Shown one piece after another: positions 10,882 through 55,156 of a stretch of 64,000 bases of DNA (positions are counted from its first letter, which is position 1; every line of letters starts with the position of its first letter). The stretch comes from Anaeromyxobacter dehalogenans 2CP-C (lineage in GTDB: Bacteria; Myxococcota; Myxococcia; Myxococcales; Anaeromyxobacteraceae). The notes under the pieces were generated by a model that had not been told where the DNA came from, did not search any database, and saw nothing but the letters and a program-made list of their open reading frames with translations. Where the stretch lies: assembly GCF_000013385.1 (NCBI RefSeq), contig NC_007760.1, forward strand, positions 3,694,001-3,758,000, read 5' to 3'. The translations under genes and the position numbers were made by a program.

Positions 10882-12015
10882 TCACCGGATGCTCGCACCC
10901 TTTTGCGCGGAGTGCGGCTCCCCGAGCAGGTCGTGCCGGATGAGGTCTTTGAGCGCGCGGAGCGCCTCGACCGGGGCGGGTGGCAGAGACACCTGGCACC
11001 CGCCGCGCGCGTTGTGCTCCGCGATCGCGCGGCGGGTCGTGTTCAGCGCCTCGGCGAGCGCGTTGTACCCCTCGCGGAGCTGACGAGCCTTGGCGCCATC
11101 GAGGCGCGCGGAGGGGTTTCTGCGCTGTTCTGCCGCTGCGACGGCGCGCCCGTCGCGAATGAACCCGGCGAGCACGCCGGCGGCCTCGTCGAACGAGAGG
11201 ACCCGGACGCGGAACGAGCTCGTCCCCTGCGCGCCGAGCCAGTCCTTCGTCGCCTTCTCGACGCGCCGCTTCCGCTCCGACGAGTGGACCAGGAACACGA
11301 GGACCGGGAAGAGCCCGTCCGGAAACGCGCGCGCGTAGTACGTCGCCGCGCCCGCGCCCGCCATCGCCGTGAAAAAGTACGCGTAGCGCTGCAGCTTGTT
11401 GAGCACGGCGCCGTGGGACCCCGGGTTCGCGGTCGCGATGCTGTGCGCTCCGGTTTCCGCCTCGAGGAAGAGGCGACGCTGGTGGCCGGTCACCTCGAGG
11501 ATGGCGTCCGGCTTCAGCACGGCCGGGGCCGTCGCGCCGGTGTGCCGGTGGAACATCTCGAACTCGAGCACGCCGTCGTCCTCGCACAGCCAGCGGAACG
11601 GCAGCTCCGAGACCGGCGCCACCGGAGACCGGCGGAGCGCGACGGCGAGCTCGACGAGGACGTCGTTCAGGAGGAGCGTGTGCTCGAGGAACTGGTGGCC
11701 CACGTCCTTCTGCGCCGGCGGCCGCAGGTACGGGACGCTCTCCTCGGCGATGGCTCGCCCCGCCGGAGCGAGCGCCCAGACCGGCACCGCCGTCCCCTCG
11801 GCGCGCCTGAACTCGAGGCGGCGAAGGTACGCGCCATCGCCGGGCCGGCTCCCGGCGGCGCAGAGCTTCGCGAGGCGCCGGTAGACGAGCTTCCGGTTCG
11901 GGCTCTCGACGACGAGCCGGTGGACGTGCTCGGCGGACACGTAGCGGGCCACGCCCACGTACGCGAGCAACGCGCGATCGCGCTCGGTGAGGATGGTCCC
12001 TCTCACCTGGGCCAC
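10882..12015 (-). CDS. Replication-relaxation-like protein
   Basis: A 377-aa protein resembling the Replic_Relax family (PF13814), found on plasmids and conjugative elements and linked to mobilisation or replication initiation. The N-terminal 90 residues look like a winged helix (LTERDRALLAYVGVARYVSAEHV ... YRRLAKLCAAG). They are followed by a region with conserved acidic and aromatic positions (KPDAILEVTG, LFLEAETG) that resembles the nuclease-like half of the family. The start is a GTG at 12015, placed by a GGAGG site 7 nt upstream inside the end of the primase gene, which it overlaps by 13 nt. No classical relaxase motif (three His or catalytic Tyr) is evident. Confidence 0.7.
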   Translation of the reverse strand: MAQVRGTILTERDRALLAYVGVARYVSAEHVHRLVVESPNRKLVYRRLAKLCAAGSRPGDGAYLRRLEFRRAEGTAVPVWALAPAGRAIAEESVPYLRPPAQKDVGHQFLEHTLLLNDVLVELAVALRRSPVAPVSELPFRWLCEDDGVLEFEMFHRHTGATAPAVLKPDAILEVTGHQRRLFLEAETGAHSIATANPGSHGAVLNKLQRYAYFFTAMAGAGAATYYARAFPDGLFPVLVFLVHSSERKRRVEKATKDWLGAQGTSSFRVRVLSFDEAAGVLAGFIRDGRAVAAAEQRRNPSARLDGAKARQLREGYNALAEALNTTRRAIAEHNARGGCQVSLPPAPVEALRALKDLIRHDLLGEPHSAQKGASIR

Positions 12016-13361
12016 GACTCGCCTCCGGCCGGTCGCCCGCGGCCGCGCGCCAGCTCGGCGCGGAGGGCGATGATGTAAAGCTCCAGGCGGCGGGCGATGC
12101 GCTGCTCGAAGAGCGCTCGCGGGAGTCCCGCAGGCGCGGCGGCCACGAACGGCCGCAGATCCCGCACGATGAGGAGCTTCTGCTCGACCGAGATCGCCTT
12201 CGTCGGCGCCTTCGCGGTCCGAGAGGCGATGGCGCGCTCGAGGAGCCACTCCGTGAGCGGGACCGCGGCGTCGATCGCGGCCTCCAGCGCCCGGAGCCCG
12301 TGCGACCGCAGGAACGAGTCCGGGTCGGCGGCGGCCGCCCCGGGCAGGCGCGCGATCCGCGTCGAGAGGCCCGCCTTGAGGAGCGCAGGGGCGACCTGCG
12401 CCGGGGCTTCGAGCCCGGGAGCGTCGGTGTCGAAGAGGAGCACCAGCTCCTCGGCGCCCGACCGTTGGACAAGCGAGAGCTGGTGTTCCGTCACCGCGGT
12501 ACCGCCCGCGGCGACCGTCTCCTGCCGCCCGGCCTGGGCGAGCGCGATCGCGTCTAGGTAGCCCTCGACCACGATGGCGCGCCGGGTGCTCCGGATGGCG
12601 GCTGCGGCCTCCGCGAGGCCGAACACCAGGTGGCCCTTCCTGAAGAGCGGCGTCTCCGGGCCGTTCAGGTACTTCGGAGCCTGCGCCCCGTCGCCCGTCG
12701 CGGGAATGATGCGGCCCGCGAACCCGACGGCGCGCCGCCGGCCGTCGAGGAACGGGAACATGACCCGGCCCCGGAACCGATCGTGCGCGAGCGGCCCCTT
12801 CGACGTGCTCTCCCGGAGGAGCCCCGCGCGCAGCAGATCGTCCTCGGGGATACCCTGCGCGACCAGCGCGGAGTGGAGGTCGTGCCACTCCCGCGCCGCG
12901 TAGCCGAGTCGGAACCGCTTCGCGGTGGGCTCGTCCACCCCTCGCGACGCGAGATACTTCCGCGCCGGCTCACCCTCCGGACCCCACAGGCGGCCCGTCC
13001 AGTGCGCCAGGGCAGCCTCGCAGGCCCGCTCGATCGCGCCCGTGGTCGGTGCGGCCACGCCGCGCCGCGCGCCGTCCTCGACGGCGACTCCCGCCTCGGC
13101 GGCGAGCTCGCGGACGACGGTCTTGAAGTCCTTCCCCTCGAACCGCTGCAGGAACTCGAACGCGTCACCCCGCGCGCCGCACCCGAAGCACTTGAAGCGC
13201 CTCGAGTCCGGGTACACGCGGAAGCTCGGCGTCTTGTCCGCGTGGAACGGGCAGCTCGCCGAGAACGAGCTCCCCGTCTTCCGGAGCTCGAGCCTGCGCC
13301 CGATGACTTCGACCGGATCGATGCGCGCGCGCAGCTCCTCGATGACGGCACCCGGGATCAT
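12003..13361 (-). CDS. DnaG-type DNA primase
   Basis: A 452-aa bacterial-type primase that would lay RNA primers on transferred or replicating strands. The zinc-binding domain is at the N-terminus (CPFH at 37-40, then CFGCG at 58-62). The TOPRIM catalytic core follows, with IVVEGYLDAIAL near residue 264 and LLFDTDAPG near residue 310. It is shorter than chromosomal DnaG (about 580-600 aa) and appears to lack most of the helicase-interaction domain, as is usual for plasmid and ICE primases. The start ATG at 13361 overlaps the preceding stop (ATGA). Confidence 0.9.
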   Translation of the reverse strand: MIPGAVIEELRARIDPVEVIGRRLELRKTGSSFSASCPFHADKTPSFRVYPDSRRFKCFGCGARGDAFEFLQRFEGKDFKTVVRELAAEAGVAVEDGARRGVAAPTTGAIERACEAALAHWTGRLWGPEGEPARKYLASRGVDEPTAKRFRLGYAAREWHDLHSALVAQGIPEDDLLRAGLLRESTSKGPLAHDRFRGRVMFPFLDGRRRAVGFAGRIIPATGDGAQAPKYLNGPETPLFRKGHLVFGLAEAAAAIRSTRRAIVVEGYLDAIALAQAGRQETVAAGGTAVTEHQLSLVQRSGAEELVLLFDTDAPGLEAPAQVAPALLKAGLSTRIARLPGAAAADPDSFLRSHGLRALEAAIDAAVPLTEWLLERAIASRTAKAPTKAISVEQKLLIVRDLRPFVAAAPAGLPRALFEQRIARRLELYIIALRAELARGRGRPAGGESWPR

Positions 13362-13612
13362 GACTGCGCTCCCGCGCTGCCGACGGTAGTGCCCCGCGGC
13401 GGCGGAACGAGGTCGGGCTCGCGGCAGTACCACCGCCTCGGGAACCGGAGCACCCCGTCCGCCGCCGCCACGATCACGCGCCCGGTCCGGTGGCCACCGC
13501 GGATCTCGTGGTCCTCCAGCGTCACGAGGACCCCGCGCGAACGATCGAGGTACGTACCTCCGACCTTCAGGATCCTCCGCTTCGACTCCGTCTGCTTTCT
13601 CACCGCGCTCAT
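13358..13612 (-). CDS. Small protein of unknown function between coupling protein and primase
   Basis: An 84-aa protein that I do not recognise. It is basic at the N-terminus and then has a run of predicted beta strands with GGTYLDRSRGVLVTLEDHEI and GRVIVAAADGVLRFPRRW. This pattern could be a small barrel of the SH3 or KOW sort. It overlaps both neighbours by 4 nt (ATGA at each end), so it is a true member of the tra operon. Role in transfer or priming is only suggested by position. Confidence 0.75.
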   Translation of the reverse strand: MSAVRKQTESKRRILKVGGTYLDRSRGVLVTLEDHEIRGGHRTGRVIVAAADGVLRFPRRWYCREPDLVPPPRGTTVGSAGAQS

Positions 13613-15447
13613 GCCGACCTCCGATCCTCCTCGCGCGCGCCGTGCGCGGCGCGCCCGATGAACCGCTCGTACAGGTGGAGCCCGGCGACCGTCGCCTCCG
13701 GGCGGGACACCAGCGGGTAGTCCGCCCGGAGCGGCGGGAGCTGCCCGTAGCAGACCGGGTGGAGCGTCGAGTCCGTGTAGAGGAAGCCCTGCCCGCAGCT
13801 GGCGAGGTTCTTGATGCGGTTCGGGTGGAGCTTGTAGGACTCGACGAGCCGCGTGGACGCCTCGCGCGTCGCGAGCGAGGTGAAGAGCGGGCCCGCCTCG
13901 ACGCGGACCGTCTTCACGACCTCCTGGTGCGTCCCGATGCTCTTCGCGACCATCTCGCAGAGCGCCGGGTTGTCCTGGTTCAGCACGTCCTTGATGCGCG
14001 TGTTGTCCCAGACCGAGTTCGCGAACTCGCGGCTCACGAGCTCGAGGTCGGCGAGCGACTGGTGGGCGACCGTGAACTGGAGGTTCGCGTCGCGGAGCTG
14101 GTTCAGCGAGTCGACGAAGGAGAGGTCGGCGAAGCGGCCGAACTCGTCCACCACGACGCTGAACGGTCGCTGGTTCCGGGTCGCCCGGAACACCTGCCGC
14201 AGGCTCCCCTCCTGCTGAACGTCCATCAGGAAGACCTTCCCGAGCGACGGCGCCTGGATCTTGAAGAGGTTCGAGGGGAGCTGGACGTACACGATGAGGT
14301 TCTGCTCGAGGACGTCGCGCATCACGATGTCGGGCGCGTAGGCGTTTACGAGCGGCGCCTGGAACTTGTCGACCGCGCCGACGAGGCCCGAGAGCGCCTT
14401 GTGGATCTCGTGCCCGAGCCGGTCGATCTGCGAGACGACCTCGCGCGCGGCCTCCTGGTCGCGCGAGCGCGCGAGGCAGTGGTCGAGGGCGCCGCGCCAG
14501 GCAGGGTTCTTGTTCCCGACGCCCTTCAGGCAGACCGCGAGGTCGCGCATCGTGAAGGGCTGGCCGAAGCCGCGCGCGTCCACCATCCCGTGCAGCAGCC
14601 GGCACAGGTTCGTGAACATGATCTGCGCCTGCGTGTTGTAGTAGCGGTTGTCGCCGAGTGGCAGGACGGAGAAGACCCGCTCCGCCACCGCGACCGGATC
14701 GCCGCCGTCGCTCTCCGGCGTGCACGGCTCGACCCAGACCATGTTGTACGTGTGGCTCGGCAGCGCCGGCTGGTTCCACGCCGGCAGCGCGAAGACGCGG
14801 AGGTCGGCCTCGCGCCCGGCGACCTGGGCGATGCCCTTAATCGTGGCGACCTCCTCGTCGCTCCCCTTCCCCGAGACAACGACACAGCCCTTCCCGTCGA
14901 GCACGTCCTGCAGGACCTGCGGCCAGAGGACGCTCTCGGTCTTGCCCGAGCCCGTCTTCCCGAGGACGTGACGGTGCGTCGTGCGCTGGCGCTCGGAGAG
15001 GTAGACGGGCTTCCAGCGCCAGCCCAGCGCGGTCCGGCGCGGAGAGAGGCCGACGAAGGTGTGGCCAGCCGGCCGGCGCTGGATCTCCGCGAGGACGTCC
15101 ACGGCGCGAGCGGGGAACCGTTGGTCGTCGGCGCGGAAGTGCGTGCCGGCGATGCGTGCGATCACGTGGTTCCGCCAGACGAGGAGGCCGGTCCGGTACG
15201 CAAGCAGGACCCCGGCCACCCCCGCAACGCCCAGGACCAGCGCGGTGAGCTCGTGCGCGAGCACCCAGGAGCGGAGCGGCAACCATCGACCCGCCGCCTC
15301 GGCTAGTAGCTCGCGCACGAATGGCACCGGGACCTCGACGCCGTCGCGCTGCCAGCGAAGCGCCAGTTCCGCGCCCACTGCGAGCGTGATGACCGCGACC
15401 GCCACGCGTGCGGGGAACGAGACGGAGGGAGCATCGGCCTGCTGCAT
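13609..15447 (-). CDS. Type IV coupling protein (VirD4/TraG/TraD family)
   Basis: A 612-aa coupling ATPase, the inner-membrane motor that links DNA or protein substrate to the type IV secretion channel. Two hydrophobic segments lie in the N-terminal 95 residues (VAVAVITLAVGAELAL and LTALVLGVAGVAGVLLAY). The Walker A motif GKTGSGKTE is near residue 166 and the Walker B, SVVVDEFGRFAD, near residue 432. It is followed by a Gln-rich helicase-like segment, QFTVAHQSLADLE. It is the first gene of a minus-strand operon whose upstream region carries the shared TGACATACAA element. The partner T4SS operon lies 9 kb away, separated by cargo. Confidence 0.93.
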   Translation of the reverse strand: MQQADAPSVSFPARVAVAVITLAVGAELALRWQRDGVEVPVPFVRELLAEAAGRWLPLRSWVLAHELTALVLGVAGVAGVLLAYRTGLLVWRNHVIARIAGTHFRADDQRFPARAVDVLAEIQRRPAGHTFVGLSPRRTALGWRWKPVYLSERQRTTHRHVLGKTGSGKTESVLWPQVLQDVLDGKGCVVVSGKGSDEEVATIKGIAQVAGREADLRVFALPAWNQPALPSHTYNMVWVEPCTPESDGGDPVAVAERVFSVLPLGDNRYYNTQAQIMFTNLCRLLHGMVDARGFGQPFTMRDLAVCLKGVGNKNPAWRGALDHCLARSRDQEAAREVVSQIDRLGHEIHKALSGLVGAVDKFQAPLVNAYAPDIVMRDVLEQNLIVYVQLPSNLFKIQAPSLGKVFLMDVQQEGSLRQVFRATRNQRPFSVVVDEFGRFADLSFVDSLNQLRDANLQFTVAHQSLADLELVSREFANSVWDNTRIKDVLNQDNPALCEMVAKSIGTHQEVVKTVRVEAGPLFTSLATREASTRLVESYKLHPNRIKNLASCGQGFLYTDSTLHPVCYGQLPPLRADYPLVSRPEATVAGLHLYERFIGRAAHGAREEDRRSA

Positions 15448-15472
15448 CGAGACCCCGGTCGAGTGGATACGG

Positions 15473-18421: not shown

Positions 18422-18424
18422 CGG

Positions 18425-24463: not shown

Positions 24464-25108
24464 TCAGAGGACGTACCAGCCGTACCCTATCGTCACGGGC
24501 ACGAGCAGCCCGAGCCGGTTCACCCCGCCGACCACGAACTGGAGCCGGGGCATGACCGAGACGGTCCAGTGGTCCGTGAACTGCCACTCGATCCCTGCAA
24601 CCGGGGCGAGCACGAGGGAATCCGTCGCGCGGTCCCGGAGGCCGAGCCCGAAGCTGTGCTCGTTCCCGGGAACGGAGACATCGATCAGGTCGCGCCGCGT
24701 GTAGCTCACGTGCGCCCAGCCGACCTCGGCGCCCAGGTGCAGTCGCCAGACGTAGCCGTGAACGAAGCGGACGCCGGCGAGCGCACCGTATCGCTGAGTC
24801 CGCTCTGAGAGCGTCCCCCGCACCGTCCCGGTGGCACTTCCCATCTCCACGCCCGAGTGGAAGTAGTCCGCAGGCGCCTCCCAGAACCCACTGGCAGCGA
24901 GCTCGAAGCTGTTCGCGATCCCGTACCGGATCCCCGCCGTAGCGCCGGCTCCGGTTCCGAGCGTGCTCGATCCGGTTCCCTGCGATGGCGAGGCAGCGAC
25001 GGCTGAGACCGCGGGGCCGAGCTCGAGCGTGAGCGCACTGCGGTCGGCCGCGGCCAGCGTGGGCGCGAGACCGAGTGCAGCGGCGACGATGACGGCCCGA
25101 ATGCCCAA
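24464..25108 (-). CDS. Outer-membrane beta-barrel protein at the end of the T4SS operon
   Basis: A 214-aa protein with a clear signal peptide (MGIRAVIVAAALGLAPTLAA, cleaved about residue 21). A pattern of alternating amphipathic strands follows to a C-terminus ending in an aromatic-rich strand (VTIGYGWYVL), typical of small outer-membrane barrels. It starts 13 nt after the kinase-VirB10 stop and is the last gene of the T4SS operon. A 16-bp palindrome, CTCGCCCGCGGGCGAG, lies about 30 nt past its stop but has no T-run. It may help the secretion channel cross the outer membrane. No family name is claimed. Confidence 0.78.
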   Translation of the reverse strand: MGIRAVIVAAALGLAPTLAAADRSALTLELGPAVSAVAASPSQGTGSSTLGTGAGATAGIRYGIANSFELAASGFWEAPADYFHSGVEMGSATGTVRGTLSERTQRYGALAGVRFVHGYVWRLHLGAEVGWAHVSYTRRDLIDVSVPGNEHSFGLGLRDRATDSLVLAPVAGIEWQFTDHWTVSVMPRLQFVVGGVNRLGLLVPVTIGYGWYVL

Positions 25109-25121: not shown

Positions 25122-27380
25122 TCAGAAGGCTCGCTCCACCCACACGTCGAACATGACCCCCGAGTCGAGCAAGAGCGCGTAGGTGCTGCCCCCCTCGACC
25201 GGGCGCTCGTGGTTCAGCGCCGCCTGCCCTGCGTTCCGGGCGACGTTCTGGCCGAGCCCGCCGGTGACCGTGTCCAGGAGGATGTTGCCCGTCCCCTTTG
25301 CGATCTGCGTTCCGAGCCCGGGCGCCCGCGGCGCCTCACCCTCGATGCGCCGCGCAGCGGCGAGGCCCGGCTTCCCATCGTCGCGCGCGAGCGCGAGCCC
25401 CTCGAACTCCAGCTCCGTGTCGTCGGGGAGCCGCAGCCTCGTGAACCGCAGGTTGAACCGCCCGCTCGACTCCGTCGCTGTGCCGTAGACGAGCGTCCGC
25501 GCCGGCAGGGCGACCTCGCCGCGCACGAGCACCGGAACGACCAGCATCGCCTCCACGGGGCCGCTGCCGATCGTCCGGCTGTCGAGGTTCGTGAGGAGCT
25601 TCGCCTTCATGTGGGCGCCCAAGGGGACCCCGCGTGGCTTTGATCCAGCGGAAGGCGCCGCGGCGCTTGCGCTCGCGAGTCGGGTCGAGCGGTGGAGCCA
25701 CGGCGGATCGCGCGGCGCTGCCGCCGCCGGCTCGGGCGCGGGTTCGCTAGGCGCCGCTTGTGCCTGGGACTCACGCTGCGGCTCTCGCCGGGGCGCAGGC
25801 CGTTTCGGCTCGGGCTTCATCTCGAGACGTCCGTCCGGCAGGACGCGGGGACGCCCGAACTCGCGCGCGAGCGCCTCGTCGATGGCAGCCGCGTCGCTCG
25901 CCGAAGGCGGGCTGGGCGTCGCGCCCAGCGCCGCCGGGATTGAGGGCGTGGCGCTCGTGTTCTCTGCTGCCCCTGGCGCGACCGCGGCGGGCTCGCGCGC
26001 TGGGACGTCGGCGACGACCGTGCTCTGGCGCTCCACCGGTCCACTGGTGATAGCCGCCACGACCATGGCTGCGATCACGCCCGCGACGAGCACCCCTCCC
26101 GCGATCAGCAGGCGTCCGGGGCCCCTGCGCGGCGCGCTCGCGGCGAGCCGCGCCTTCGCCTCGCGAACGGCGCTCGGGACCGGGTCGGACTCGCGGGAGG
26201 CCGCCACCGCCGCGTCAGCCGGCTCCCCCGCATCGAACGCACGCGGCGCCACGCGCGTCGGCACCTCGAAGCCACTCGGCCGCGCACCGGTGGGTGTCAC
26301 GGCGCCCGGCTCGCCCTCCTCCCCAGGCCGCCCGCGAGAACGTTCCTCCGAGAGCCGCTCCGCGGCATCGACGATCTCCTCGCCCACGGCCGGCTCGGGA
26401 CACCCGGGCCGAACCTGAGTCGCACCCGGAACGTCGAACGGGTCCGTCCAGGCGCGGTCCCCGGCTCCGCCCTCGCGCGCGGCCCGAAGGAGCTCGGCGA
26501 GCTCGCGCGCGGACTGCGGTCTCCCCGCCGGATCCTTCTCGAGGAGCGCCATCGCGACGTCGCCGAGCGGACGCGGGACGCGAGCGTCGAGATCCGTCGG
26601 GTGCACCGGTGTCTCCGTCTTGATGGCGATGAGGACCGCCGCCTCGCTCTCGAGCGCCCTCGGGTCGCGCGGGAACGGCCGGATGCCGGTGAGCACCTGG
26701 TAGAGGATGTAGCCGACCGCGTGGAGGTCGGTCGTGGTCTTCCAGTCGAACGGCTCGCCGCGCGCGAACGCAGCCGAGTCGCAGTAGCGCGCGTACTCCG
26801 GCGCGTAGTGCGTGATCGTGCCGACGCTCGCCGCGCGCGTGAGGTTCAACGCGAGCTGCGGCCGCGCGATGCCGAAGTCGATCACGATCGGCTCGCCGTC
26901 CGTACGCACGAGCACGTTGTCGCTCTTGAAGTCCCGGTGGTAGATGCCGAGCGAGTGCATGTGCTCGATGGCACCGGCGAGCTTCTCGAACACGCTGCAG
27001 ACCTTGGCGAGCGACGGCGTCGCGTGCTCTCGCCAGGCGAGGAGCGGCGGGCCGTCCACGTAGTCCATCACGAGGAACGGGAACCCGCCCTCGAGCTCGG
27101 GCCACCAGTCGAACGAGTGGACGCGGACGATGTTCGGATGGTGGAGCGTCTTCAGCGCCGCGATCTCGCGGTCGAGCCGCTCCTCGTAGTGCTCCCGGTC
27201 CTCGGCGTCGAGCTCGGAGAGCCGCTGCCGGCCCATCTTGAGCGCCAAGAGCTTGCCGTCGCGCCGAACCTTCCACAGACACCCGAATCCCCCGCTCCCG
27301 AGCTTGTCGACGACCTCGTAGGCGCCGACGCGCGTGCCCTTCTCGAGATAGGAGGGGTCGATCCGGGCGCGTTCGGTCAT
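25122..27380 (-). CDS. Ser/Thr protein kinase fused to a VirB10/TrbI-like channel domain
   Basis: A 752-aa fusion. Residues 1-290 are a full Hanks-type kinase: glycine loop GSGGFG near 29-34, the VAIK-type lysine in LLALKMG near 47, HRDFKSDN near 149, IDFGIA near 169, and YAPEYAR. All catalytic residues are present. A single membrane segment (LLIAGGVLVAGVIAAMVVAAI) lies near residue 432. It is followed by a Pro-rich periplasmic stretch and, from about residue 588, a VirB10/TrbI-like domain (AKLLTNLDSRTIGSGPVEAM, LPARTLVYGTA, LRFTRLRLPD) ending MFDVWVERAF. The topology fits a VirB10 whose cytoplasmic tail has been replaced by a kinase. It sits where virB10 belongs, overlapping the VirB9-like gene by 4 nt. 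Confidence 0.85.
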   Translation of the reverse strand: MTERARIDPSYLEKGTRVGAYEVVDKLGSGGFGCLWKVRRDGKLLALKMGRQRLSELDAEDREHYEERLDREIAALKTLHHPNIVRVHSFDWWPELEGGFPFLVMDYVDGPPLLAWREHATPSLAKVCSVFEKLAGAIEHMHSLGIYHRDFKSDNVLVRTDGEPIVIDFGIARPQLALNLTRAASVGTITHYAPEYARYCDSAAFARGEPFDWKTTTDLHAVGYILYQVLTGIRPFPRDPRALESEAAVLIAIKTETPVHPTDLDARVPRPLGDVAMALLEKDPAGRPQSARELAELLRAAREGGAGDRAWTDPFDVPGATQVRPGCPEPAVGEEIVDAAERLSEERSRGRPGEEGEPGAVTPTGARPSGFEVPTRVAPRAFDAGEPADAAVAASRESDPVPSAVREAKARLAASAPRRGPGRLLIAGGVLVAGVIAAMVVAAITSGPVERQSTVVADVPAREPAAVAPGAAENTSATPSIPAALGATPSPPSASDAAAIDEALAREFGRPRVLPDGRLEMKPEPKRPAPRREPQRESQAQAAPSEPAPEPAAAAPRDPPWLHRSTRLASASAAAPSAGSKPRGVPLGAHMKAKLLTNLDSRTIGSGPVEAMLVVPVLVRGEVALPARTLVYGTATESSGRFNLRFTRLRLPDDTELEFEGLALARDDGKPGLAAARRIEGEAPRAPGLGTQIAKGTGNILLDTVTGGLGQNVARNAGQAALNHERPVEGGSTYALLLDSGVMFDVWVERAF

Positions 27381-28285
27381 GGCGAGGCGCCCTCGAGCGC
27401 GACGAGCCGCGGCCCGTCCTTCTCGTGGAAGGTCACCCTGAACCGCTGCGACGGGGACATGGGCGGCGTCTCGTAGGCCACGACGACGCGCTCCGCCGTG
27501 CCGGGCGGCAGGATCGGGAGCTCGGCCTGGGCGGAGACGACCTTCACGTCCACCGCGTCGCGGCCGCCCGTGAGGCGCACCTCGACGCGGTCGAGCACCC
27601 ACGAGCGCTGCGGATCGCGGTTCTCGACGGTGAAGACCATGTACGTGAGCCCTAGCAGCCGGTACACCCATCGTCCCTGCACGAGGAGCCGGCTCTGCTT
27701 GTCGCCGATGTGGAGCGGCCGGCGCTCGAAGGTCTGCGGCTGGTCGAGGCTCTGCGCGAGGAGGAGCGCCGCGAGCTTCGCCGCACCCGCGTTCGCCGCG
27801 CCGTCGCGGCACTCGTCGAGCTCGCCCCGGAGCTGCTCGTTCATCATCCGGAGCGCCTGCGCCGAGTCCGGACTGGCCCGCTCGCGCAGGGCGACGGCGA
27901 CGTCGACCTGCACGTCCGCCTCGCCGGGGACTGTGACGAGCTTGAACGTCAGGACGGTCCCGTCGGCGAGGGAGACGTTCAGGGGCTCCGGCCGCGCGAG
28001 GTCGGTCTTCGGGACGAGCATGACCGTCCGGTCGGTCTGGGTCGGCGCGTAGAACACGCCGCGCACGTCCGCGAGGACGGCGCCGCCATCCTTCACGGGG
28101 ACCTCGAACGTGAGGATCGTCGGAGTGCCCCCCGCGACGCGGATCTCCGGCACGGACGTGAGCGCGGCGTCGTCGATCGTGATCGCGCGCCTGCGGAGCT
28201 CCCGCTTGTCGCCGGCGTGAGCTGGGCCCGCTGCGGCCAAGGCGACCGCCACGCACGCCGCGAGCGCTGGGCTACCTCTGGTCAC
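27377..28285 (-). CDS. VirB9/TrbG-like exported protein (DUF2381-like)
   Basis: A 302-aa exported protein. I place the start at the GTG at 28285 because GGGAGG lies 6 nt upstream and a signal peptide (SPALAACVAVALAAAGPAHA) follows directly. This start overlaps the VirB8-like gene by 14 nt. The N-terminal half is beta-rich (RAITIDDAALTSVPEIRVAG, TPTILTFEVPV) and the C-terminal half includes LTYMVFTVENRDPQRSWVLD. The sequence resembles the myxobacterial DUF2381 family. Its place between VirB8 and VirB10 and its all-beta make-up argue that it fills the VirB9/TrbG slot of the outer-membrane core complex. The assignment rests mainly on order. Confidence 0.7.
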   Translation of the reverse strand: MTRGSPALAACVAVALAAAGPAHAGDKRELRRRAITIDDAALTSVPEIRVAGGTPTILTFEVPVKDGGAVLADVRGVFYAPTQTDRTVMLVPKTDLARPEPLNVSLADGTVLTFKLVTVPGEADVQVDVAVALRERASPDSAQALRMMNEQLRGELDECRDGAANAGAAKLAALLLAQSLDQPQTFERRPLHIGDKQSRLLVQGRWVYRLLGLTYMVFTVENRDPQRSWVLDRVEVRLTGGRDAVDVKVVSAQAELPILPPGTAERVVVAYETPPMSPSQRFRVTFHEKDGPRLVALEGASP

Positions 28286-29018
28286 GGGACGCCTCCCGTT
28301 CTTCGCCGTCCTGCGCGGCACCATTTTCGCTGAGCGCGAAGGGAACGAGCCGCCATTCCTGCACTTCGAGCCCATCCGGGCAGTCCATCGTGGGGGGTAC
28401 GACACGCTCCAGGAGCTCGACCCGGACCCGATCGGTCTCCGGCGCGCCCCCACCCTCGACGAGCGGAAACGATCGGCGCGTGAGGGTCGCGCGCACGACG
28501 ACGTGCGTCGGCGTCTGGTCCTCCACGACGATCTCGTCGAACGAGAGCTCCGTCCCCCGCTGCGCGAGGCGGTACGTCTCGACGAGCCGTTTCGCGGCGG
28601 ATTCCTTGGCGATCCGCTCGCGCAGCTCGGGGGCCATCATCGTCAGCGCGGCCGGCCAGTTCGCGGCGATCGTGCTCGAGTTGAGCCCCAGGGCGAGGTG
28701 CAGGAAGTCTCTCGTGAACCGCACGATCGCCGCGTCGGGCGGGCGCGTCCGGTCGGCGAGGAAACGCAAAAGGGCGTCGGTTGCGACGGAACGCCGCACC
28801 GGCGTCGACCGGCCGTTCGCGTCCACCATGACGAACTCCGGCGGGCGGCTCGCGAGGCGCGCGAGCGCGATGCACTGGAGGACGACGACGGTGAGCAGCG
28901 CGACGATGGTCCAGCTCTTCCATGCGTTCTGCGCCACGAACGCCGCCCACACTGCGGGCGGGGACCCCGGCGGTCGCGGATCCTGCATGCTCGTCCTCAC
29001 CACGGCTCGTCCCTCCAT
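28272..29018 (-). CDS. VirB8/TrbF-like inner-membrane protein
   Basis: A 248-aa bitopic protein with one membrane helix (WTIVALLTVVVLQCIALARL, residues about 35-54) and a periplasmic domain of about 190 residues, the VirB8/TrbF layout. The segment VRFTRDFLHLALGLNSSTIA and the later strands are consistent with the NTF2-like VirB8 fold. Two starts are possible, both with good ribosome-binding sites: ATG 29018 (GGAAGG 7 nt upstream) and ATG 28988 (GAGG 6 nt upstream). The gene lies between the VirB6-like and VirB9-like genes, as in trb operons. Confidence 0.78.
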   Translation of the reverse strand: MEGRAVVRTSMQDPRPPGSPPAVWAAFVAQNAWKSWTIVALLTVVVLQCIALARLASRPPEFVMVDANGRSTPVRRSVATDALLRFLADRTRPPDAAIVRFTRDFLHLALGLNSSTIAANWPAALTMMAPELRERIAKESAAKRLVETYRLAQRGTELSFDEIVVEDQTPTHVVVRATLTRRSFPLVEGGGAPETDRVRVELLERVVPPTMDCPDGLEVQEWRLVPFALSENGAAQDGEEREASRDQR

Positions 29019-29036: not shown

Positions 29037-30356
29037 CTACGCGCCTTTGCCGCCTTGCGGAGTGCCGCCCTTCTCCGACCGCGCCGCCGCCTGGCGAGGC
29101 GGCTCCGGCGGGGCGGGTGGGTTCGCGACCACGCCTCCTTGCTCGGCTTTGGTCGCGGGAGCGGCCGATGCCGCTGCCGCGGTGGCCCCGGGTGCCTGTC
29201 CCGCGCGGCCGCGGCGAACGCCGCCCCGCAGCTGTGCGCCTCCGCCGGGCGGGTTCGACACGGCTCCGCCGCTCCCGCCGCCTCCTGCCCGTGCGCCGCC
29301 AGCGCCACCGCCCGCCCCTCCTCCCCCACTGCTCGTTCCCGGTCCGCCACCGGGGGCGCTCCCGCCACCGGAGATCGCGTGGGCCGCTGCCGTGCCCACC
29401 GCGACGACGCGGCCAGCGGCGCCGGTCGCGAGCCTGAGGACCGGACGAACGGCGTCGTGGTGAGCCGCCTTCGCGGAGCCCCAGCCGTGCGAGGTCGCGT
29501 TGTCGAGCGCGCCGCCGATCACGTGGCTCGCGAGGAGCGGCGTCGCGAGCGCAGTCACGAGCATCACGAGGGCCGCGACCAGGCACTCGAGGTACGTGCG
29601 CCGGGCAGCGCCCTGTGCCGCGACCGTCACGAGGACCGAGAGGAGGACCCCGGAGAACACGGGCCAGCTCGCGATCGTGACGAACCGGACGAACCACCGC
29701 GTGCCGGTGCTGCTCACCCGCGGGATCCCCGCCACGAGGGCGAGCGGCCCGATCACGAAGAGCGTCGCGGTGAGGATGCGGGACAGCCAGTTCACGAGGA
29801 ACACGGCCGCCTCCGCGACGAGCTGGATGCAGGCGATGAGCGCGTCGTACACCCACGCCGTGATCCCCGACGGCTCGGCCGCGTCGCTTCCTGCGCTCTC
29901 CGTGCTCGCCGGACGCTCACCGTTCGAGGCGAGGTCCTCGAGTGACTTCCGCATCTCACTCGCTTCCCGGACGAAGGCCTTCCAGGTCGAGGGCGGCGCA
30001 ACCTGTCGTTCGAGACCGTCGAGGAGCCCGATCACTCCGCCGAAGACCGTCTGGTAGTTCCACAGGAGGAGCAGCACCAGGATGACGCGCCAGGTGACGG
30101 CCGCGTAGTCGCGCACTGCGAGCGGGGACTTCCCGAACGCCTCGATCGTGTACGCAAGGAAGGTCGAGAGGAAGAGGAAGCTCCGCGCGACCGCGAGCGT
30201 CTTGCCGAGGAGGTCCTTGAGCACGCCCGACCGCTCGAAGTCGAGGACGAGGTCTCTCGTCGAGGCGGCGTCGCCCGCGAAGGCCAGCGCCGGCGCGAGC
30301 ACGGCGACCGCGCCGAACGCCAGGCGCCGGGACGACCTGCACGCTGGCGCCGTCAC
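29037..30356 (-). CDS. VirB6/TrbL-like polytopic membrane protein with a Gly-rich tail
   Basis: A 439-aa multi-pass protein of the VirB6/TrbL type. A cleavable signal-like segment (RLAFGAVAVLAPALAFAGD) is followed by about six membrane helices (for example AVTWRVILVLLLLWNYQTVF and LVALVMLVTALATPLLASHV-like segments). The last 130 residues are soluble and extremely Gly/Ala/Pro-rich, as in some TrbL proteins. The start is a GTG at 30356 overlapping the VirB5-like stop (GTGA), so coupling is likely. The protein would form part of the inner-membrane pore. Confidence 0.82.
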   Translation of the reverse strand: MTAPACRSSRRLAFGAVAVLAPALAFAGDAASTRDLVLDFERSGVLKDLLGKTLAVARSFLFLSTFLAYTIEAFGKSPLAVRDYAAVTWRVILVLLLLWNYQTVFGGVIGLLDGLERQVAPPSTWKAFVREASEMRKSLEDLASNGERPASTESAGSDAAEPSGITAWVYDALIACIQLVAEAAVFLVNWLSRILTATLFVIGPLALVAGIPRVSSTGTRWFVRFVTIASWPVFSGVLLSVLVTVAAQGAARRTYLECLVAALVMLVTALATPLLASHVIGGALDNATSHGWGSAKAAHHDAVRPVLRLATGAAGRVVAVGTAAAHAISGGGSAPGGGPGTSSGGGGAGGGAGGARAGGGGSGGAVSNPPGGGAQLRGGVRRGRAGQAPGATAAAASAAPATKAEQGGVVANPPAPPEPPRQAAARSEKGGTPQGGKGA

Positions 30357-31276
30357 GGCTCGGCCCCTCCGGTCCGGATCCGGACGCGCTCGTTCACGAG
30401 CGACTCGAGCCCGGTGGTGAGGGCGGCTCGCTGTCCCTCCCGTGCCGCGAGCTCGCGCTTCAGGTCGGCGTTCTTCTGCTCGACCGCGAGCGCCTGGAGC
30501 CGCGCGATCTCGGCGAGCCGGACGTTCGTCTCCTGTCCCTCCTCGAGGTGCAGCACCTGCGCCTGCTGCGCCGCGAGCTGACACTCCTCCGCGAACCGCG
30601 CCGCCTCGTGCGCGTCGCCGAGCTCCGAGGCCCCGTTGCACCGGCGCAGGAGCTCGCGAAGCCGGACCTTCTGCAGGTCGCCAGCGCGCGCCTCGGCCGC
30701 GCTGGCGCGGATGGTCGCCGCGACCTCGGCGTCCACCGCCCGCGCCTGCGCCGCGCCGCTCATCGGACCGAACGTGGCCGCGAGCGCCCGGAGCAGCTTC
30801 GCGTTCTCGAGCTCGTTGCGGAGCTGCACGCACGCGGGCTGGCCCGCGGCCACGTCGGCGAGGCAGTAGCTCGAGAGCTGCTGGAGAGTCCCGGTGCCCT
30901 GCGCCCACGGGCTAGCGCCCATACCGCTCGCAGCGAGGGCGTCGCGCCGGAAGCGCTCGAGGTCGGGATAGGCCGCCTCGAGGTCTTGCCGGAACCTCTC
31001 TCCGAACCGGCGCGCGGAGAAGTTCCGGAACGAGCGCGCCGCGGTGGCGGCGTCGTCGGCGTACGCGGCGACGCGCTTCACCTCCCCGTAGCTCTTCCGC
31101 AGCTCGGACAGGCTCTCGGTCATGACCGCGAGCTGCTTCGTCGTGTTCGCGAGGATGTCGGCCAGGATGAGGTCGCCGCCGAGATCGATGAACGCCGCCG
31201 CCCTCGCGGCGTAGAGGACCGCGCCGGCGGACAGCACGATCGCGACGCCGAGCTTTCGAGAGATCCGGACGCGCAT
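30353..31276 (-). CDS. VirB5/TrbJ-like periplasmic protein
   Basis: A 307-aa exported protein with a signal peptide (AIVLSAGAVLYAARAAAF). The body is almost all helical and coiled-coil rich (LANTTKQLAVMTESLSELRK near the start, NADLKRELAAREGQRAALTT near the end), the layout of TrbJ and VirB5 pilus-tip or assembly proteins. Cysteines at CNGASELG and EECQLAAQ may form a disulfide. It lies between VirB4 and VirB6, the usual trbJ position. Primary sequence in this family is poorly conserved, so order and architecture carry the call. Confidence 0.75.
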   Translation of the reverse strand: MRVRISRKLGVAIVLSAGAVLYAARAAAFIDLGGDLILADILANTTKQLAVMTESLSELRKSYGEVKRVAAYADDAATAARSFRNFSARRFGERFRQDLEAAYPDLERFRRDALAASGMGASPWAQGTGTLQQLSSYCLADVAAGQPACVQLRNELENAKLLRALAATFGPMSGAAQARAVDAEVAATIRASAAEARAGDLQKVRLRELLRRCNGASELGDAHEAARFAEECQLAAQQAQVLHLEEGQETNVRLAEIARLQALAVEQKNADLKRELAAREGQRAALTTGLESLVNERVRIRTGGAEP

Positions 31277-31285: not shown

Positions 31286-33871
31286 TCACGCCGCGGGGCG
31301 GCTCGGCCGATCGCGGCCGACGACACCGTGGGGGTACCTGGCCGCGAGCTCCTGGAGCAGCGCGAGCCGGTCGTAGGACGGGTTCCTCGCGACGGCGCGC
31401 GCGAGGAAGTCCTGGTCTTCCTTGTCGGTAGTCAGGATCCAGTAGGCGAGCGGGTGGAGCGCGAGCCTCACCACCGCGGTGCGCGCGCCGTACATGAGCA
31501 GGAAGTCGCTGAACCAGCCCGGCTTAAGCTCCAGTCCGGCGAACGCGGCGGCGGCGCGCGGCGAGAGGCCGAAGTGCTCGACCACCGCGCGGTGCTTCCC
31601 CGCGAGGTGGCGGAGGAAGATCCGGATGGTGCTGTTCCCGACGATCGCCTCGCGTCCGACCCGCGACCCCAGGAAGTCGTTCAGGTTCTGCGAGATCATC
31701 CACATCGCGGTGTCGTACTTCCGCATCTTCCGGTAGCAGCCGCCGAGGAACCGCTCCGTCGCGTCGTCGGCGCCGAGGTACTCGTGCCCCTCGTCGACCT
31801 CGACGAGCGTGCGCGTCCTGCGCGCCATCGCCCGGTTCGTGATCGCCTGGATGATGGTCGCCATCGCGACGGACTTCGTGCCGGCGTTCTCGGAGACCTT
31901 CGCGAGATCGAACGTGAGGAGCGGCGCGTCGAACCGGAGCTGCGATGGGCGGTTCAAGAAGTCGGCGTAGATGCCGGTGCAGAAGATGGCGAGGCGTCGG
32001 ACGAGGTCATCCGCGATCGCCCGATCGTCCGGGTGCGTCCACTCGTGGGTGGCGAGCCCCTCCGAGAACTGGCCGACGAGCGGTGGCTCCTCCGGGCGTT
32101 GCCGGAAGCGGGTCTCGTAGGTCCAGCGGATCGCGCGGGCGACCACGTCCCGCTCCACCTTGTCGAAGGGAGGCCGCGTCCGGTCGGCGACGCACACCTC
32201 GAGGAACTGGACGACGTGCTCGATGTCCTCGTTCGAGATCTCGGTCCCTTCGCCGGCGAGCTGGGAATAGGAGAGGAACGGTGAGATGGACGTCGAGAGG
32301 TCGACCGGGATGTGCACCCCGCCGAGGAGCTCCGTGAGCGGCTTCCAGGACTTCCCGTTGTCGATGAGGATCGCCTCGACGCCAGCCGCCCGCGCGTCGA
32401 GCGTGAGCGCGCCGAGGGTCACGCTCTTTCCGGAGCCCGTGTCCGCGACCACGATCCCGTGGTGCGCGTTCACGCCGCTCGACTTGTCGAAGAGGTCGAA
32501 CCGGAACGCCTCGCCGGTGGGCGTGAGGAGCACGCTCGAGGCCCGGGCGCTGCCGCGCCAGGGCGCGAAGACGGGCAGGAAGTCGGCCGCGTTCCGGCTC
32601 GTGCAGCCCTTCTTCCGGAGCTGGTACCGGCACGCGCCCGGGAGCATCGAGAGCAGGGCCGGGACCTGCGTGACCTCCTCGACGAGGAGCTCGGAGTTGC
32701 CGGCGGCGGCGAAGGCGCTCCGCGACGCCTCGGTGGCCGCCTCGAGCTCGTCCAGCGAGCCCGCCTCGAGGAGGAGCGACACCGAGAGCGCGACGACCTT
32801 CGTGCTCATCGCCGCGAGTTCCTCGAAGAGCCCTCGGATCGCCTCCTGCTTGGCCTGGTCCGCCTCCTCCGACTCGACGGTGCGGCGATCCAGAAAGGGC
32901 ATCACGGCGCGGAGGCTCTCGACCAAGGCGTGCTGGTTGTTGAGGAGCCACCGCGCCGTCTTCTGCGTGCGTACGTGGACGGTGACCGCGAGCGTGTACG
33001 AGAGGGGGCCGCGCGCCGTCGCGAGCCCGAGGAGCGGCTCGCAGGCGAAGTAGTCCGTGCCGCCCTCCGGCAGCACCTTCAGCGTCGCGACCCGCCGCCA
33101 GATCCCGCCCTGCCGGAGGTGGCCGCGCCCGTCCTCGACATCCTCGTGGGCGAGCTGCTCCGCCTCCGTGTACTCGGCGAGGTGGAGCCCCTCACGCTTC
33201 ACTACCTGGTCGGACCACAGCGTGTCGCGGAGGCGGACGCGGGGAGGCGCGGCGCCCGCGCGAGCCCGCGTGGGGTTCAGGAGCTCGTAGTGCAGTCGCC
33301 AGACGTCCTCGAGATCGAGCTCCCGGGACGGGATGCCCGCCGCGCCGAGGCGCGCGGCGACGCGGTCGCGGAGCTGCGCGAGCCGGCCGAGGCGCCGCGC
33401 GTGCTCTGCGCCGGTGAGCTGGGTTGCCTTCCCGAAGAGGAGCTTTCCTCCCAGGAGCCCGCGCCCGATGCCCTGCTTCAGCCCGCCCGGACCGGAGAAG
33501 AAGACGTACACGCGCGCGCGACGGAGCCGCTGCGTACGGAGCCAGCGCGCGCGAGACGCGACGTACTCGCGCAGCGCCGCGGCGTCCGTTGCGGCGGCGA
33601 TGCCTTCGTACTCGCGGACGTCCTCCTCGGCGCCCTCCTCGATCCGGTGGATGAAGTGGAGGGTCGTCTCGTCGTCGAGGGAGGCGACAAGGCTCCGGAG
33701 CGCCTCGCCGATGCCGGCGATCTGATCCTCGCCGGCGAACCGGACGTCGAGCGTGCCGAGCTCGAGCCCGCCGACGTAGTCGAGCGCGGGCGTGACGAGC
33801 GCGGTCACGCCGCCCTCGCGCAGGGTTCGCCAGAGCGGGATGAGCCCCGCGAGCGGGCTCTCGCGGATCAC
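31286..33871 (-). CDS. virB4: VirB4/TrbE-type T4SS ATPase
   Basis: An 861-aa ATPase that powers pilus and channel assembly. The start is a GTG at 33871, with GGGGG 6 nt upstream and overlapping the VirB3-like stop (GTGA). The open frame upstream is antisense only. The N-terminal half is the VirB4 accessory domain. Walker A, VADTGSGKSVTLG, lies near residue 479, Walker B, TLVEVDEGHEYL, near residue 692, and MWMISQNLNDFL follows as the next conserved motif. Size and motif spacing are standard for the family. It is the clearest marker that this is a complete conjugation-type T4SS. Confidence 0.94.
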   Translation of the reverse strand: MIRESPLAGLIPLWRTLREGGVTALVTPALDYVGGLELGTLDVRFAGEDQIAGIGEALRSLVASLDDETTLHFIHRIEEGAEEDVREYEGIAAATDAAALREYVASRARWLRTQRLRRARVYVFFSGPGGLKQGIGRGLLGGKLLFGKATQLTGAEHARRLGRLAQLRDRVAARLGAAGIPSRELDLEDVWRLHYELLNPTRARAGAAPPRVRLRDTLWSDQVVKREGLHLAEYTEAEQLAHEDVEDGRGHLRQGGIWRRVATLKVLPEGGTDYFACEPLLGLATARGPLSYTLAVTVHVRTQKTARWLLNNQHALVESLRAVMPFLDRRTVESEEADQAKQEAIRGLFEELAAMSTKVVALSVSLLLEAGSLDELEAATEASRSAFAAAGNSELLVEEVTQVPALLSMLPGACRYQLRKKGCTSRNAADFLPVFAPWRGSARASSVLLTPTGEAFRFDLFDKSSGVNAHHGIVVADTGSGKSVTLGALTLDARAAGVEAILIDNGKSWKPLTELLGGVHIPVDLSTSISPFLSYSQLAGEGTEISNEDIEHVVQFLEVCVADRTRPPFDKVERDVVARAIRWTYETRFRQRPEEPPLVGQFSEGLATHEWTHPDDRAIADDLVRRLAIFCTGIYADFLNRPSQLRFDAPLLTFDLAKVSENAGTKSVAMATIIQAITNRAMARRTRTLVEVDEGHEYLGADDATERFLGGCYRKMRKYDTAMWMISQNLNDFLGSRVGREAIVGNSTIRIFLRHLAGKHRAVVEHFGLSPRAAAAFAGLELKPGWFSDFLLMYGARTAVVRLALHPLAYWILTTDKEDQDFLARAVARNPSYDRLALLQELAARYPHGVVGRDRPSRPAA

Positions 33872-34203
33872 GACCGGCCCCCGCGCGACGACTCGTCGCG
33901 CCAGTCGTACGGACCGAACGGGAACCGCGGGAGCGGCGCCCGCGCCGCCGCCGTGAGCCGGCCCGCCGCCACGCGCTGCCGCAGGCGCCATGCGACCCAG
34001 TGCTGCAGGTGGCCCTCGGGCCGGCCGTAGCCAGCGATCCGAATGACGAGGTAGATGGCGAGGCCAGCCGCGGCGCCGATGTTCGGCGCCCCGAGAGCCG
34101 TCCCGAGCCAGCCGGCGCCAAGAACGGCCATCCACTCCGTCGGGAAGACGAGCCCGAGGAAGGTGCTCCTCGAATCGAGGTTCCGGTACACGGGCGCGCG
34201 CAT
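33868..34203 (-). CDS. VirB3/TrbD-like membrane protein
   Basis: A 111-aa protein with an N-terminal cytoplasmic segment (VYRNLDSRSTFLGLVFP), two closely spaced membrane helices (residues about 25-58), and a basic tail. This is the VirB3/TrbD layout. It lies between the pilin-like gene and virB4 and overlaps virB4 by 4 nt. VirB3 proteins help anchor VirB4 to the inner membrane. Confidence 0.8.
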   Translation of the reverse strand: MRAPVYRNLDSRSTFLGLVFPTEWMAVLGAGWLGTALGAPNIGAAAGLAIYLVIRIAGYGRPEGHLQHWVAWRLRQRVAAGRLTAAARAPLPRFPFGPYDWRDESSRGGRS

Positions 34204-34233: not shown

Positions 34234-34554
34234 TCAGCCCGCGCGGATCGCCTGCATGAGGCGGTCGGCGTTCGCGAGCAGGAAGTAGAGGATCACCGCG
34301 ATGATCGCGATGTAGCCGGTCGTCTTGATGAGGTCCGGCCGGATGAACGCGGCGACACCCGAGATCACGATCGCGAAGAGCGCGATGGGCGCGATGATGA
34401 AGTTCTTCGCGAACGTCAGGAGCTGCTGCCCCGGCATCGTGCTCTGCGCGAGGGCGAGCTCGGGCGCAGCCGCCAGGACGAGGACGAGGGCCAACTGGGC
34501 GGCGAGCGCCAAGCGGCCGGCGAGATCACGGTTCGGGCGGGACTTCGAGGTCAT
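34234..34554 (-). CDS. VirB2/TrbC-like pilin
   Basis: A 106-aa prepilin-like protein. It has a long signal peptide (ALAAQLALVLVLAAAPELALAQ, cleavage about residue 37) and then two hydrophobic helices (IIAPIALFAIVISGVAAFI and TGYIAIIAVILYFLLANAD) joined by a short polar loop. This is the classic VirB2/TrbC architecture. It overlaps the upstream membrane-protein gene by 29 nt in another frame and precedes VirB3 by 30 nt. It would be the major subunit of the conjugative pilus. Confidence 0.85.
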   Translation of the reverse strand: MTSKSRPNRDLAGRLALAAQLALVLVLAAAPELALAQSTMPGQQLLTFAKNFIIAPIALFAIVISGVAAFIRPDLIKTTGYIAIIAVILYFLLANADRLMQAIRAG

Positions 34555-34924
34555 CTTCCTTCTCCTTCCCCTCTGGGCGGCGCCGGAAGTCGGCGTCGTA
34601 CGTGGATTGAAGCTCGAGGAACCGGGCGCGCAGCTGGCGCGCGTAGGCGAACGGTGAGGCGGAGCGCGGGGGCTCGAACGCGAGCACCGCGGCGAAGGCC
34701 ACGCAGGCGGCGGCCACTTGCAGCGCGGTGAGAAGCGCTGACCAGCGGCCGGGATGTCCCTCGACGAGCGCGCCGGAGAGCGAGATCACCGCTGGAACCG
34801 CGGCCGCAGCGAGCAGGACCCCAAACACCGCAAGCGCGCGGGTCGGGAGTCGGCGCAAGCGGCGAAGCCGAGCCACCCCTGCGAGAGGAGCATTAGCTTC
34901 CTGAGTGATTAGCCGGCTCGACAT
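34526..34924 (-). CDS. Unknown membrane protein, first gene of the T4SS operon
   Basis: A 132-aa protein with two predicted membrane helices (ALAVFGVLLAAAAVPAVISL and LLTALQVAAACVAFAAVLAF) and a charged C-terminal tail ending in acidic residues (KEKEDDLEVPPEP). I do not recognise it. Its ATG at 34924 lies 26 nt from the shared TGACATACAA element and its end overlaps the pilin gene by 29 nt. It could be an entry-exclusion or assembly factor, but nothing in the sequence says so. Confidence 0.7.
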   Translation of the reverse strand: MSSRLITQEANAPLAGVARLRRLRRLPTRALAVFGVLLAAAAVPAVISLSGALVEGHPGRWSALLTALQVAAACVAFAAVLAFEPPRSASPFAYARQLRARFLELQSTYDADFRRRPEGKEKEDDLEVPPEP

Positions 34925-54325: not shown

Positions 54326-55097
54326 GGCTCGCCTCCAGGATCGGCAGGAGCTCGTCGAGCGCGGCGAGATAGGCCGGCGGCCCCTTCGACGGCCGGTAGC
54401 GTGCGTCGTAGAGCGGGATCCCTTCGGCGAGCGAACGCGCGATGGCGGTGGCGAGCGGGATGCGCGTGCGGAGCGCCCGGTCACCAACGAGCCCCTCCAA
54501 CGCCTTGAGCGCCTCGCGCGACTCGGTCTGCTCCTCGACGAACCGCGTCGGCAGGTAGGCGAGCACGTTCGCTTCGGGGGCGACGCCGCGGCGGAGCTGC
54601 TGGACCACCCGTCCCAGCTCCGGGAGGACGGAGACGGCGAGCCGCGTCGTCTCGACCGGCGCGAGGATCGGCCCGGCGGCGAGCGCGTTGTAGGTGACCG
54701 GACCGAGGCTCGGGGCGCAGTCACAGATGACGAAGTCGTAGCGATCCTCGACGCGCTGGAGCGCCTCTCGGACGGCGACGGGACCGGTGAGCTGGTTCGC
54801 GCGCTGCACCTCGAGGTCGACGCCGACGGCCCAAGGGCACGCCGGGACCACATCCAGTCCTTCGCAGACGCGCTGCGGCTCGAACGGCAGCTCGGGCCTG
54901 AGCAGGAACTCGAGGACGCCGTAGGCGCCGGGCTGCGCGTCCACGCCGAGCGCCGCGGTGGCGTTCCCCTGCGAGTCGAGGTCGACGACGAGCACGCGCC
55001 GGCCGGTGCGCTGGAGTCCCCAGGCGAACGCGACGGAGGTCGCGGTCTTCCCGGACCCTCCCTTCGGCATCGCCACGACGAGTCTGCGAGCAGTCAT
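54318..55097 (-). CDS. parA: Partition ATPase ParA
   Basis: A 259-aa ParA/Soj-type ATPase. The deviant Walker A is KGGSGKT at residues 12-18. A' follows as VVDLDSQGNATAALG, and the Walker B-like DFVICDCAPSLGPVT is near residue 115. There is no N-terminal DNA-binding extension, so it is type Ib-like in size. The ATG at 55097 is preferred over the one at 55103 because GGAGG lies 8 nt before it. It is divergent from the gene at 55244. Confidence 0.93.
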   Translation of the reverse strand: MTARRLVVAMPKGGSGKTATSVAFAWGLQRTGRRVLVVDLDSQGNATAALGVDAQPGAYGVLEFLLRPELPFEPQRVCEGLDVVPACPWAVGVDLEVQRANQLTGPVAVREALQRVEDRYDFVICDCAPSLGPVTYNALAAGPILAPVETTRLAVSVLPELGRVVQQLRRGVAPEANVLAYLPTRFVEEQTESREALKALEGLVGDRALRTRIPLATAIARSLAEGIPLYDARYRPSKGPPAYLAALDELLPILEASHG

Positions 55098-55156
55098 GTC
55101 CATCTCCTCCGCCGGCGCGAATGGGGCCGGCGGGTTGACTCTGACCGTCTGGCGTG

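Follow-up and report, generated by a model that had tools for sequence, protein, structure and literature searches.

A Ser/Thr kinase fused to the VirB10 channel subunit of a type IV secretion system in Anaeromyxobacter dehalogenans

The window analysed here is a 64,000-nucleotide stretch of Anaeromyxobacter dehalogenans 2CP-C; the replicon that hosts it is a closed chromosome of 5,013,479 bp. At positions 25122–27380, translation of the plus strand gives several stops, whereas the minus strand is one single open frame of 752 residues. The ATG of this frame overlaps the stop codon of the upstream gene, a member of the DUF2381 family, in the bases ATGA (27377–27380). The encoded protein is arranged as follows.

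25122..27380, minus strand: kinase-TM-VirB10 fusion, 752 residues, ATG at 27380 and stop at 25122
26511..27320, minus strand: Hanks-type Ser/Thr kinase domain, residues 21–290; Pfam Pkinase 1.1e-31, catalytic motifs intact
26112..26510, minus strand: cytoplasmic juxtamembrane linker, residues 291–423; low complexity, from sequence and alignment
26055..26111, minus strand: single membrane helix, residues 424–442; from hydropathy, N side positive
25650..26054, minus strand: Pro-rich periplasmic stretch, residues 443–577; carries a conserved DAxAIDxxLxxxYGxRP-like motif
25125..25649, minus strand: VirB10 C-terminal (O-layer) barrel domain, residues 578–752; from the TrbI profile, AlphaFold2, Foldseek and VIA-align

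The catalytic motifs GSGGFG, LALK, HRDFKSDN, DFG and APE are found at residues 28, 45, 148, 168 and 193, respectively. None of the 17 aligned members of the family has lost the HRD motif, the lysine and asparagine of its loop or the DFG aspartate. The protein contains one strong hydrophobic segment, at residue 424; the net charge on its N side is +5, and proline makes up 18% of the region after it. By hydropathy and charge, the same membrane helix and Pro-rich stretch are present in 17 members. The positive N side of the single helix predicts a cytoplasmic kinase, with the remainder of the protein in the periplasm. The periplasmic motif was defined on the alignment, since the motif regex also matched the kinase in some rows. 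No PASTA or other ligand domains were found in the fusion by Pfam and profile scans. The sequence-only reading had described one continuous frame with a complete Hanks kinase, one membrane helix and a Pro-rich stretch; all of these were recovered, the frame at exactly the coordinates given and on the minus strand. Frame fusion, assembly error or chance as the origin of the frame was ruled out by its recurrence in 11 genomes and on a plasmid.

The fusion gene lies in an F-like T4SS operon with the order VirB2, VirB3, VirB4, VirB5-like, VirB6, VirB8-like, VirB9 (DUF2381) and kinase-VirB10; the VirB8, VirB5 and VirB3 assignments were made mainly from position and synteny. The genes of the operon and of the surrounding element are listed below.

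34526..34924, minus strand: small membrane protein at the operon head; synteny
34234..34554, minus strand: TrbC/VirB2 pilin; 8.7e-6
33868..34203, minus strand: VirB3-position protein; position and synteny
31286..33871, minus strand: VirB4/TraC ATPase, F-like; TraC-F-type 8.5e-64
30353..31276, minus strand: VirB5-position protein; position and synteny, without profile match
29037..30356, minus strand: VirB6-like polytopic membrane protein; Bac_Flav_CT_J 1.6e-4, homologue TrbL 2.5e-5
28272..29018, minus strand: VirB8/TraE-like protein; position, TraE 0.19, divergent homologue 0.007
27377..28285, minus strand: DUF2381/TIGR02268 protein at the VirB9 position; Pfam 4.2e-85, VirB9 fold
24464..25108, minus strand: outer-membrane beta-barrel protein downstream of the fusion, as in other loci too; OMP_b-brl 6.9e-7
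13609..15447, minus strand: VirD4-type coupling protein; TraG-D_C 1.4e-9, T4SS-DNA_transf 1.1e-7
12003..13361, minus strand: DnaG-type primase; profile match
10882..12015, minus strand: Replication-relaxation protein, candidate relaxosome part; Replic_Relax 5.2e-13
7883..10795, minus strand: large lipoprotein of the kind found just 3' of the fusion elsewhere; gene order by eye, no Pfam match
53216..55166, minus strand: ParB and ParA partition genes; profile matches
55744..56202, plus strand: lytic transglycosylase, VirB1-like; SLT 1.3e-24

As first proposed, the fusion gene occupies the virB10 position, directly after the VirB9-position gene. No phosphatase or phospho-binding protein was identified among the operon genes. 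Compared with three congeners, the window ends (1–19,000 and 46,000–64,000) show similarity only in patches, which is expected if the region is an island; in one congener, similarity to the window resumes at about 63,350.

Several other genes of the window were recorded. BREX genes (BrxA, BrxB and BrxC) lie at its left edge (2197–7032), a GajA-like (Gabija) protein is encoded at 50893–52995 (1.4e-145), an AbiEi/AbiEii pair at 60420–61894 and a MoxR-VWA-DUF6744 gene set at 41749–45150. One 1948-residue protein (18425–24271) has no Pfam or PADLOC match; the 3' end of its gene and the next gene are 91% identical to a place in congener G035. The tRNA-Pro called by ARAGORN at 40045–40129 lies within a radC-like gene and is probably spurious. 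Large lipoproteins, some of them with Ig-like repeats, are encoded 3' of the fusion at L034:13748-16537, L037:2284-7158, L039:1887-7385 and L103:43-4639; in some loci a gene for a collagen-like lipoprotein and one for an outer-membrane barrel come next, and in the window this set is split (7254–10795). These downstream lipoproteins are candidate mating-contact surface proteins.

The identity of the C-terminal domain was analyzed by profile and by predicted fold. Pfam TrbI matches residues 585–676 at 1.3e-7; in the protein scan the score is 32.1 bits, against a cut-off of 35, and in the genome scan including neighbours it is 36 bits. Among the 17 aligned members, 13 match TrbI and 15 match the Bacteroides conjugative TraM profile. 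In the AlphaFold2 model of residues 578–752, most of the barrel has pLDDT above 90; model residues 107–154 are below 50, and the place and length of this low-confidence loop fit the VirB10 antenna. Foldseek against the PDB gave 25 matches below 0.001, and all 25 are VirB10 C-terminal domains, from TrwE, Xanthomonas citri VirB10, CagY, ComB10, TraB of F and DotG; the VirB10-family members within the complexes were identified from the entry titles. VIA-align Z scores are 8.6–15.5 for VirB10 domains and 3.4 for the next best. Identity to the solved VirB10 domains is about 11–20%, and a PDB sequence search with the C-terminal domain alone gave no match, although the fold search did.

A search of the genome turned up no virB10 besides the fusion, the only credible TrbI protein encoded there. 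TrbI matches were found in nine of the 13 fusion genomes searched, at fused loci only, and none were found in the other four. The VirB10/TrbI-like C-terminus proposed from the sequence is thus borne out by profile and by predicted fold, which matches VirB10 domains alone, and the separate virB10 gene that would have spoken against it was found neither in this genome nor in the other fusion-bearing genomes searched. One alternative is that the C-terminus is an unrelated periplasmic barrel, so that an ordinary receptor kinase merely sits beside a T4SS. The TrbI score, close to the curated cut-off, is in its favor; it is contradicted by the fold search, by the TrbI and TraM matches across the family and by the lack of another virB10, and we give it almost no credence. 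The kinase-TM-VirB10 architecture is near certain, and we conclude with high confidence that the protein is the VirB10 subunit of a conjugative T4SS in which a complete Ser/Thr kinase replaces the short cytoplasmic tail.

The partner encoded just upstream was modeled as well. The DUF2381 model has a pLDDT of 86 and its fold matches TraK of F, DotH, CagX, X. citri VirB9 and TrwF, with TraK and DotH leading in Foldseek. The protein has the two-domain VirB9 beta fold, and its N-terminal domain aligns with DotH, CagX and TrwF at VIA-align Z scores of 11–13.5. VIA-align also listed adaptin ears and archaellum stators, which belong to neither the VirB9 nor the VirB10 family, and these were treated as common beta-sandwich folds. 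The CagX sequence profile has no match on DUF2381 in this genome. In the distant genome G013, the gene preceding the fused kinase shows a trace of CagX (0.014), and a profile built from three such bridge genes matches DUF2381 over 263 columns at 1.2e-17. By modeled fold and by position, DUF2381 is VirB9; membership of CagX is not claimed. Because the DUF2381 fold and the bridge homologues both point to VirB9, the outer core is DUF2381 (VirB9) plus kinase-VirB10, and DUF2381/TIGR02268, a family with no function assigned so far, gains a likely role.

We searched 195 Myxococcota genomes and fetched loci for the same arrangement. Thirteen loci in 11 genomes have the same fused frame, and their gene order is conserved as far as the contigs allow a comparison; three more genomes carry divergent fused versions: G013 (four loci), G183 (two) and G186. 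The kinase-TM-VirB10 order, which the sequence-only reading had proposed to look for in other Myxococcota, therefore recurs, both in these 11 genomes and on a Myxococcus plasmid. Anaeromyxobacter soli, A. oryzisoli and A. terrae are among the hosts with a species name. In G127, whose assembly consists of two contigs, a contig of 147 kb carries the locus. A collection scan with a narrow alignment returned close relatives only. Contig L127, labelled as an Actinomycetes MAG, carries an Anaeromyxobacter-like fusion; the contig is almost identical to Anaeromyxobacter sequences and has probably been misbinned.

The plasmid NZ_CP123279.1 (L103, L104), circular and 64,379 bp in size, carries the same operon together with RepA, ParA/B, a coupling protein and a Replic_Relax protein. 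In its annotation the fusion is a 'protein kinase' and the partner is DUF2381; MOB-suite types it as non-mobilizable despite the T4SS operon, the coupling protein and Replic_Relax. That the system may move DNA between cells is supported by its carriage on both a plasmid and an island; beside the coupling protein, the Replic_Relax protein is a candidate for the relaxase role.

Ordinary, unfused VirB10s were found in seven other Myxococcota genomes. Unfused VirB10s of the divergent type are also present, L183:9052-10494 (481 residues) and L051:1295-3109 (605 residues). Since unfused relatives exist, the kinase is an addition; to judge from the sequences of L183 and L051, this type of T4SS can work without it.

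DUF2381 is also found away from secretion genes. It is present in 78 of the 195 genomes, with at least 11 candidates in many Myxococcaceae genomes. None of the 20 fetched orphan loci (L083–L102, Myxococcaceae chromosomes) has a VirB4 match near the DUF2381 gene, and in eight of the 20 a kinase match adjoins it. Behind several orphan DUF2381 genes comes first a kinase whose VirB10-like C-terminus is shortened, and next a second, weakly kinase-like frame of about 400–450 residues. The orphan kinase C-termini correspond by profile to the early part of the VirB10 domain (1.9e-9; control, 0.24); the late part is missing.

To place these kinases, a tree of 51 rows, including 16 other kinases of this genome, was rooted at the midpoint. 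The 13 main T4SS kinases and nine orphan-adjacent kinases form one clade (100/99), apart from the 16 host kinases. Within the T4SS kinase clade the orphan kinases form one nested clade (99/99), which groups with ten T4SS kinases at 91/87. With a midpoint root and a nesting support of 91/87, the direction from T4SS to orphan module is likely. The chromosomal DUF2381-kinase modules are thus apparently a T4SS core reused for signalling.

In L187, a further T4SS operon, a DUF2381-like gene accompanies a kinase-VirB10 with a kinase of another lineage; this kinase groups with the L048 and L181 kinases (100/100). The simplest reading of these sequences is that the kinase-VirB10 fusion arose more than once; a kinase exchanged in a fusion that was already present could also account for L187. 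The L048 and L181 kinases are outside the main kinase clade. A kinase with a VirB10-like C-terminus also lies some 10–15 kb from an ordinary virB10 at L179:15980-18839, L180:1-1488 and L181:16315-19185; in L179 and L181 a DUF2381-like gene is beside that kinase, and in L179 the ordinary virB10 lies in a classical VirB operon (VirB6, VirB8, VirB10).

VirB10 spans both membranes and makes the outer gate. The part of it in the cytoplasm touches VirB4, VirB3 and VirD4 and has been proposed to start the switch of the machine, and the protein coordinates assembly (PMC12624023); its state follows that of the ATPases (PMC3297438). By analogy with other VirB10s, the fusion would form a ring of about 12–16 copies, placing an equal number of kinases at the channel mouth, beside VirB4, VirB3 and VirD4. 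The spacing of the kinases would change as the ring assembles, or as it responds to mate contact, to substrate docking or to the action of the pilus, and this would drive trans-autophosphorylation. The activated kinase could then phosphorylate the channel ATPases, the coupling protein or the relaxosome; such phosphorylation may switch the channel from pilus building to DNA transfer and inform the cell of an attached mate or a functioning channel. VirB9 and VirB10 would thus supply the sensing half of a receptor kinase, and the chromosomal DUF2381-kinase modules, which have neither transfer genes nor the late VirB10 part, fit such a role. The earlier suggestion that phosphorylation could gate transfer or sense recipient contact fits this anatomy and the known behaviour of VirB10. 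We rank the likely targets of the signal as channel ATPases, then the host, then assembly alone, and we hold the identity as a VirB10-kinase together with this phosphorylation mechanism to be rather more probable than the alternatives.

The main competitor is that the kinase acts outwards: an assembled or contact-stimulated channel would signal to the host (transcription, motility, defence) and would not itself be controlled. In its favor, orphan DUF2381-kinase pairs occur without transfer genes, so that the module can signal without a channel, and the unfused relatives indicate that transfer can do without a kinase; however, the kinase sits at the VirB10-ATPase contact (PMC12624023), which makes local substrates likely, and no dedicated regulator gene was identified adjoining the fusion. 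We regard purely outward signalling as unlikely, though the least unlikely of the other explanations. A checkpoint of assembly or copy control, with a one-time phosphorylation of the kinase itself or of its VirB partners and no sensing of mate or substrate, would suit the role of VirB10 in coordinating assembly (PMC12624023), and ring formation would activate the kinase without ligand. It leaves unexplained the orphan modules, which keep a VirB9/VirB10-like pair but have no machine, and is in our view improbable.

The kinase might also serve the element in defence or exclusion, with the channel as its sensor and pilus-using phages as one possible target. This would go with the BREX genes, the GajA protein and AbiE on the island, and the kinase domain does score with PADLOC kinase models such as PD-T4-6. 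Those scores reflect generic kinase similarity, and the plasmid copy and the other operons place the fusion among transfer genes rather than defence genes; such a device is very improbable. Gating or sensing by the kinase-VirB10 ring is the reading we prefer.

Like VirB10, TrbI, TraB of F, CagY, DotG and ComB10 (PF03743), the fusion has the C-terminal fold, the N-proximal helix, the Pro-rich stretch and the place after the VirB9 gene. Where these proteins have a short tail, it carries some 420 residues in the cytoplasm that include a complete kinase, and its C-terminal domain is divergent. With the PASTA kinases PknB and Stk1 it shares an N-terminal cytoplasmic kinase with intact motifs, one helix and an extracytoplasmic domain, but that domain is a core subunit of a T4SS instead of a PASTA or ligand-binding domain. 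The Myxococcaceae DUF2381-kinase pairs share its VirB9-fold partner family, its kinase clade and, in shortened form, its VirB10-like C-terminus; they differ in lacking the late part of that domain and in having no transfer genes in the sampled loci. Among F-type systems (TraC, TraK, TraB), the VirB4 is closest to TraC-F (8.5e-64) and the VirB9 partner folds like TraK and DotH; here, a kinase is added and DUF2381 replaces a sequence-recognisable TraK. LegK1 is a Ser/Thr kinase effector moved by a T4SS. CtkA of the Tfs3 ICE is likewise a Ser/Thr kinase moved by a T4SS (PMC5536186). Both, like the other known kinases linked with T4SSs, are effectors; they act outside the producing cell, whereas the kinase described here is within the channel.

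In the open-access literature searched, kinase domain, VirB10 and Myxococcota are joined nowhere, two T4SS reviews from 2025 speak of no kinase within the channel, and the statement that no T4SS of this layout had been described holds for that literature. It contains no mention of DUF2381/TIGR02268 either; an earlier mention outside it is possible. By the features analyzed, this is a true VirB10 in a true T4SS, with a new built-in enzyme.

It is an old question how a conjugation machine detects an attached mate and then passes from building pili to transferring DNA. The current view regards the cytoplasmic end of VirB10 as a strong candidate for this role (PMC12624023). Because that end is a kinase in the fusion family, the question becomes testable here: the candidate switch is an enzyme with an activity open to assay, to loss through a single-residue change and to tracing by phosphoproteomics, and the kinase-less VirB10s of L183 and L051 offer a natural control for its contribution. 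Conjugation in Myxococcota is probably underrated, as standard typing overlooks such elements. Taken together, these observations suggest that myxobacteria carrying kinase-VirB10 read or control DNA transfer by phosphorylation. We further propose, tentatively and at somewhat less than even odds, that VirB9 and VirB10 act as a receptor, that the outer core has been joined to kinases on more than one occasion as a contact-sensing receptor kinase, and that in Myxococcaceae the module left the T4SS and multiplied into signalling receptors. If true, a family of signalling receptors in these social bacteria would have been built from the core of a secretion machine.
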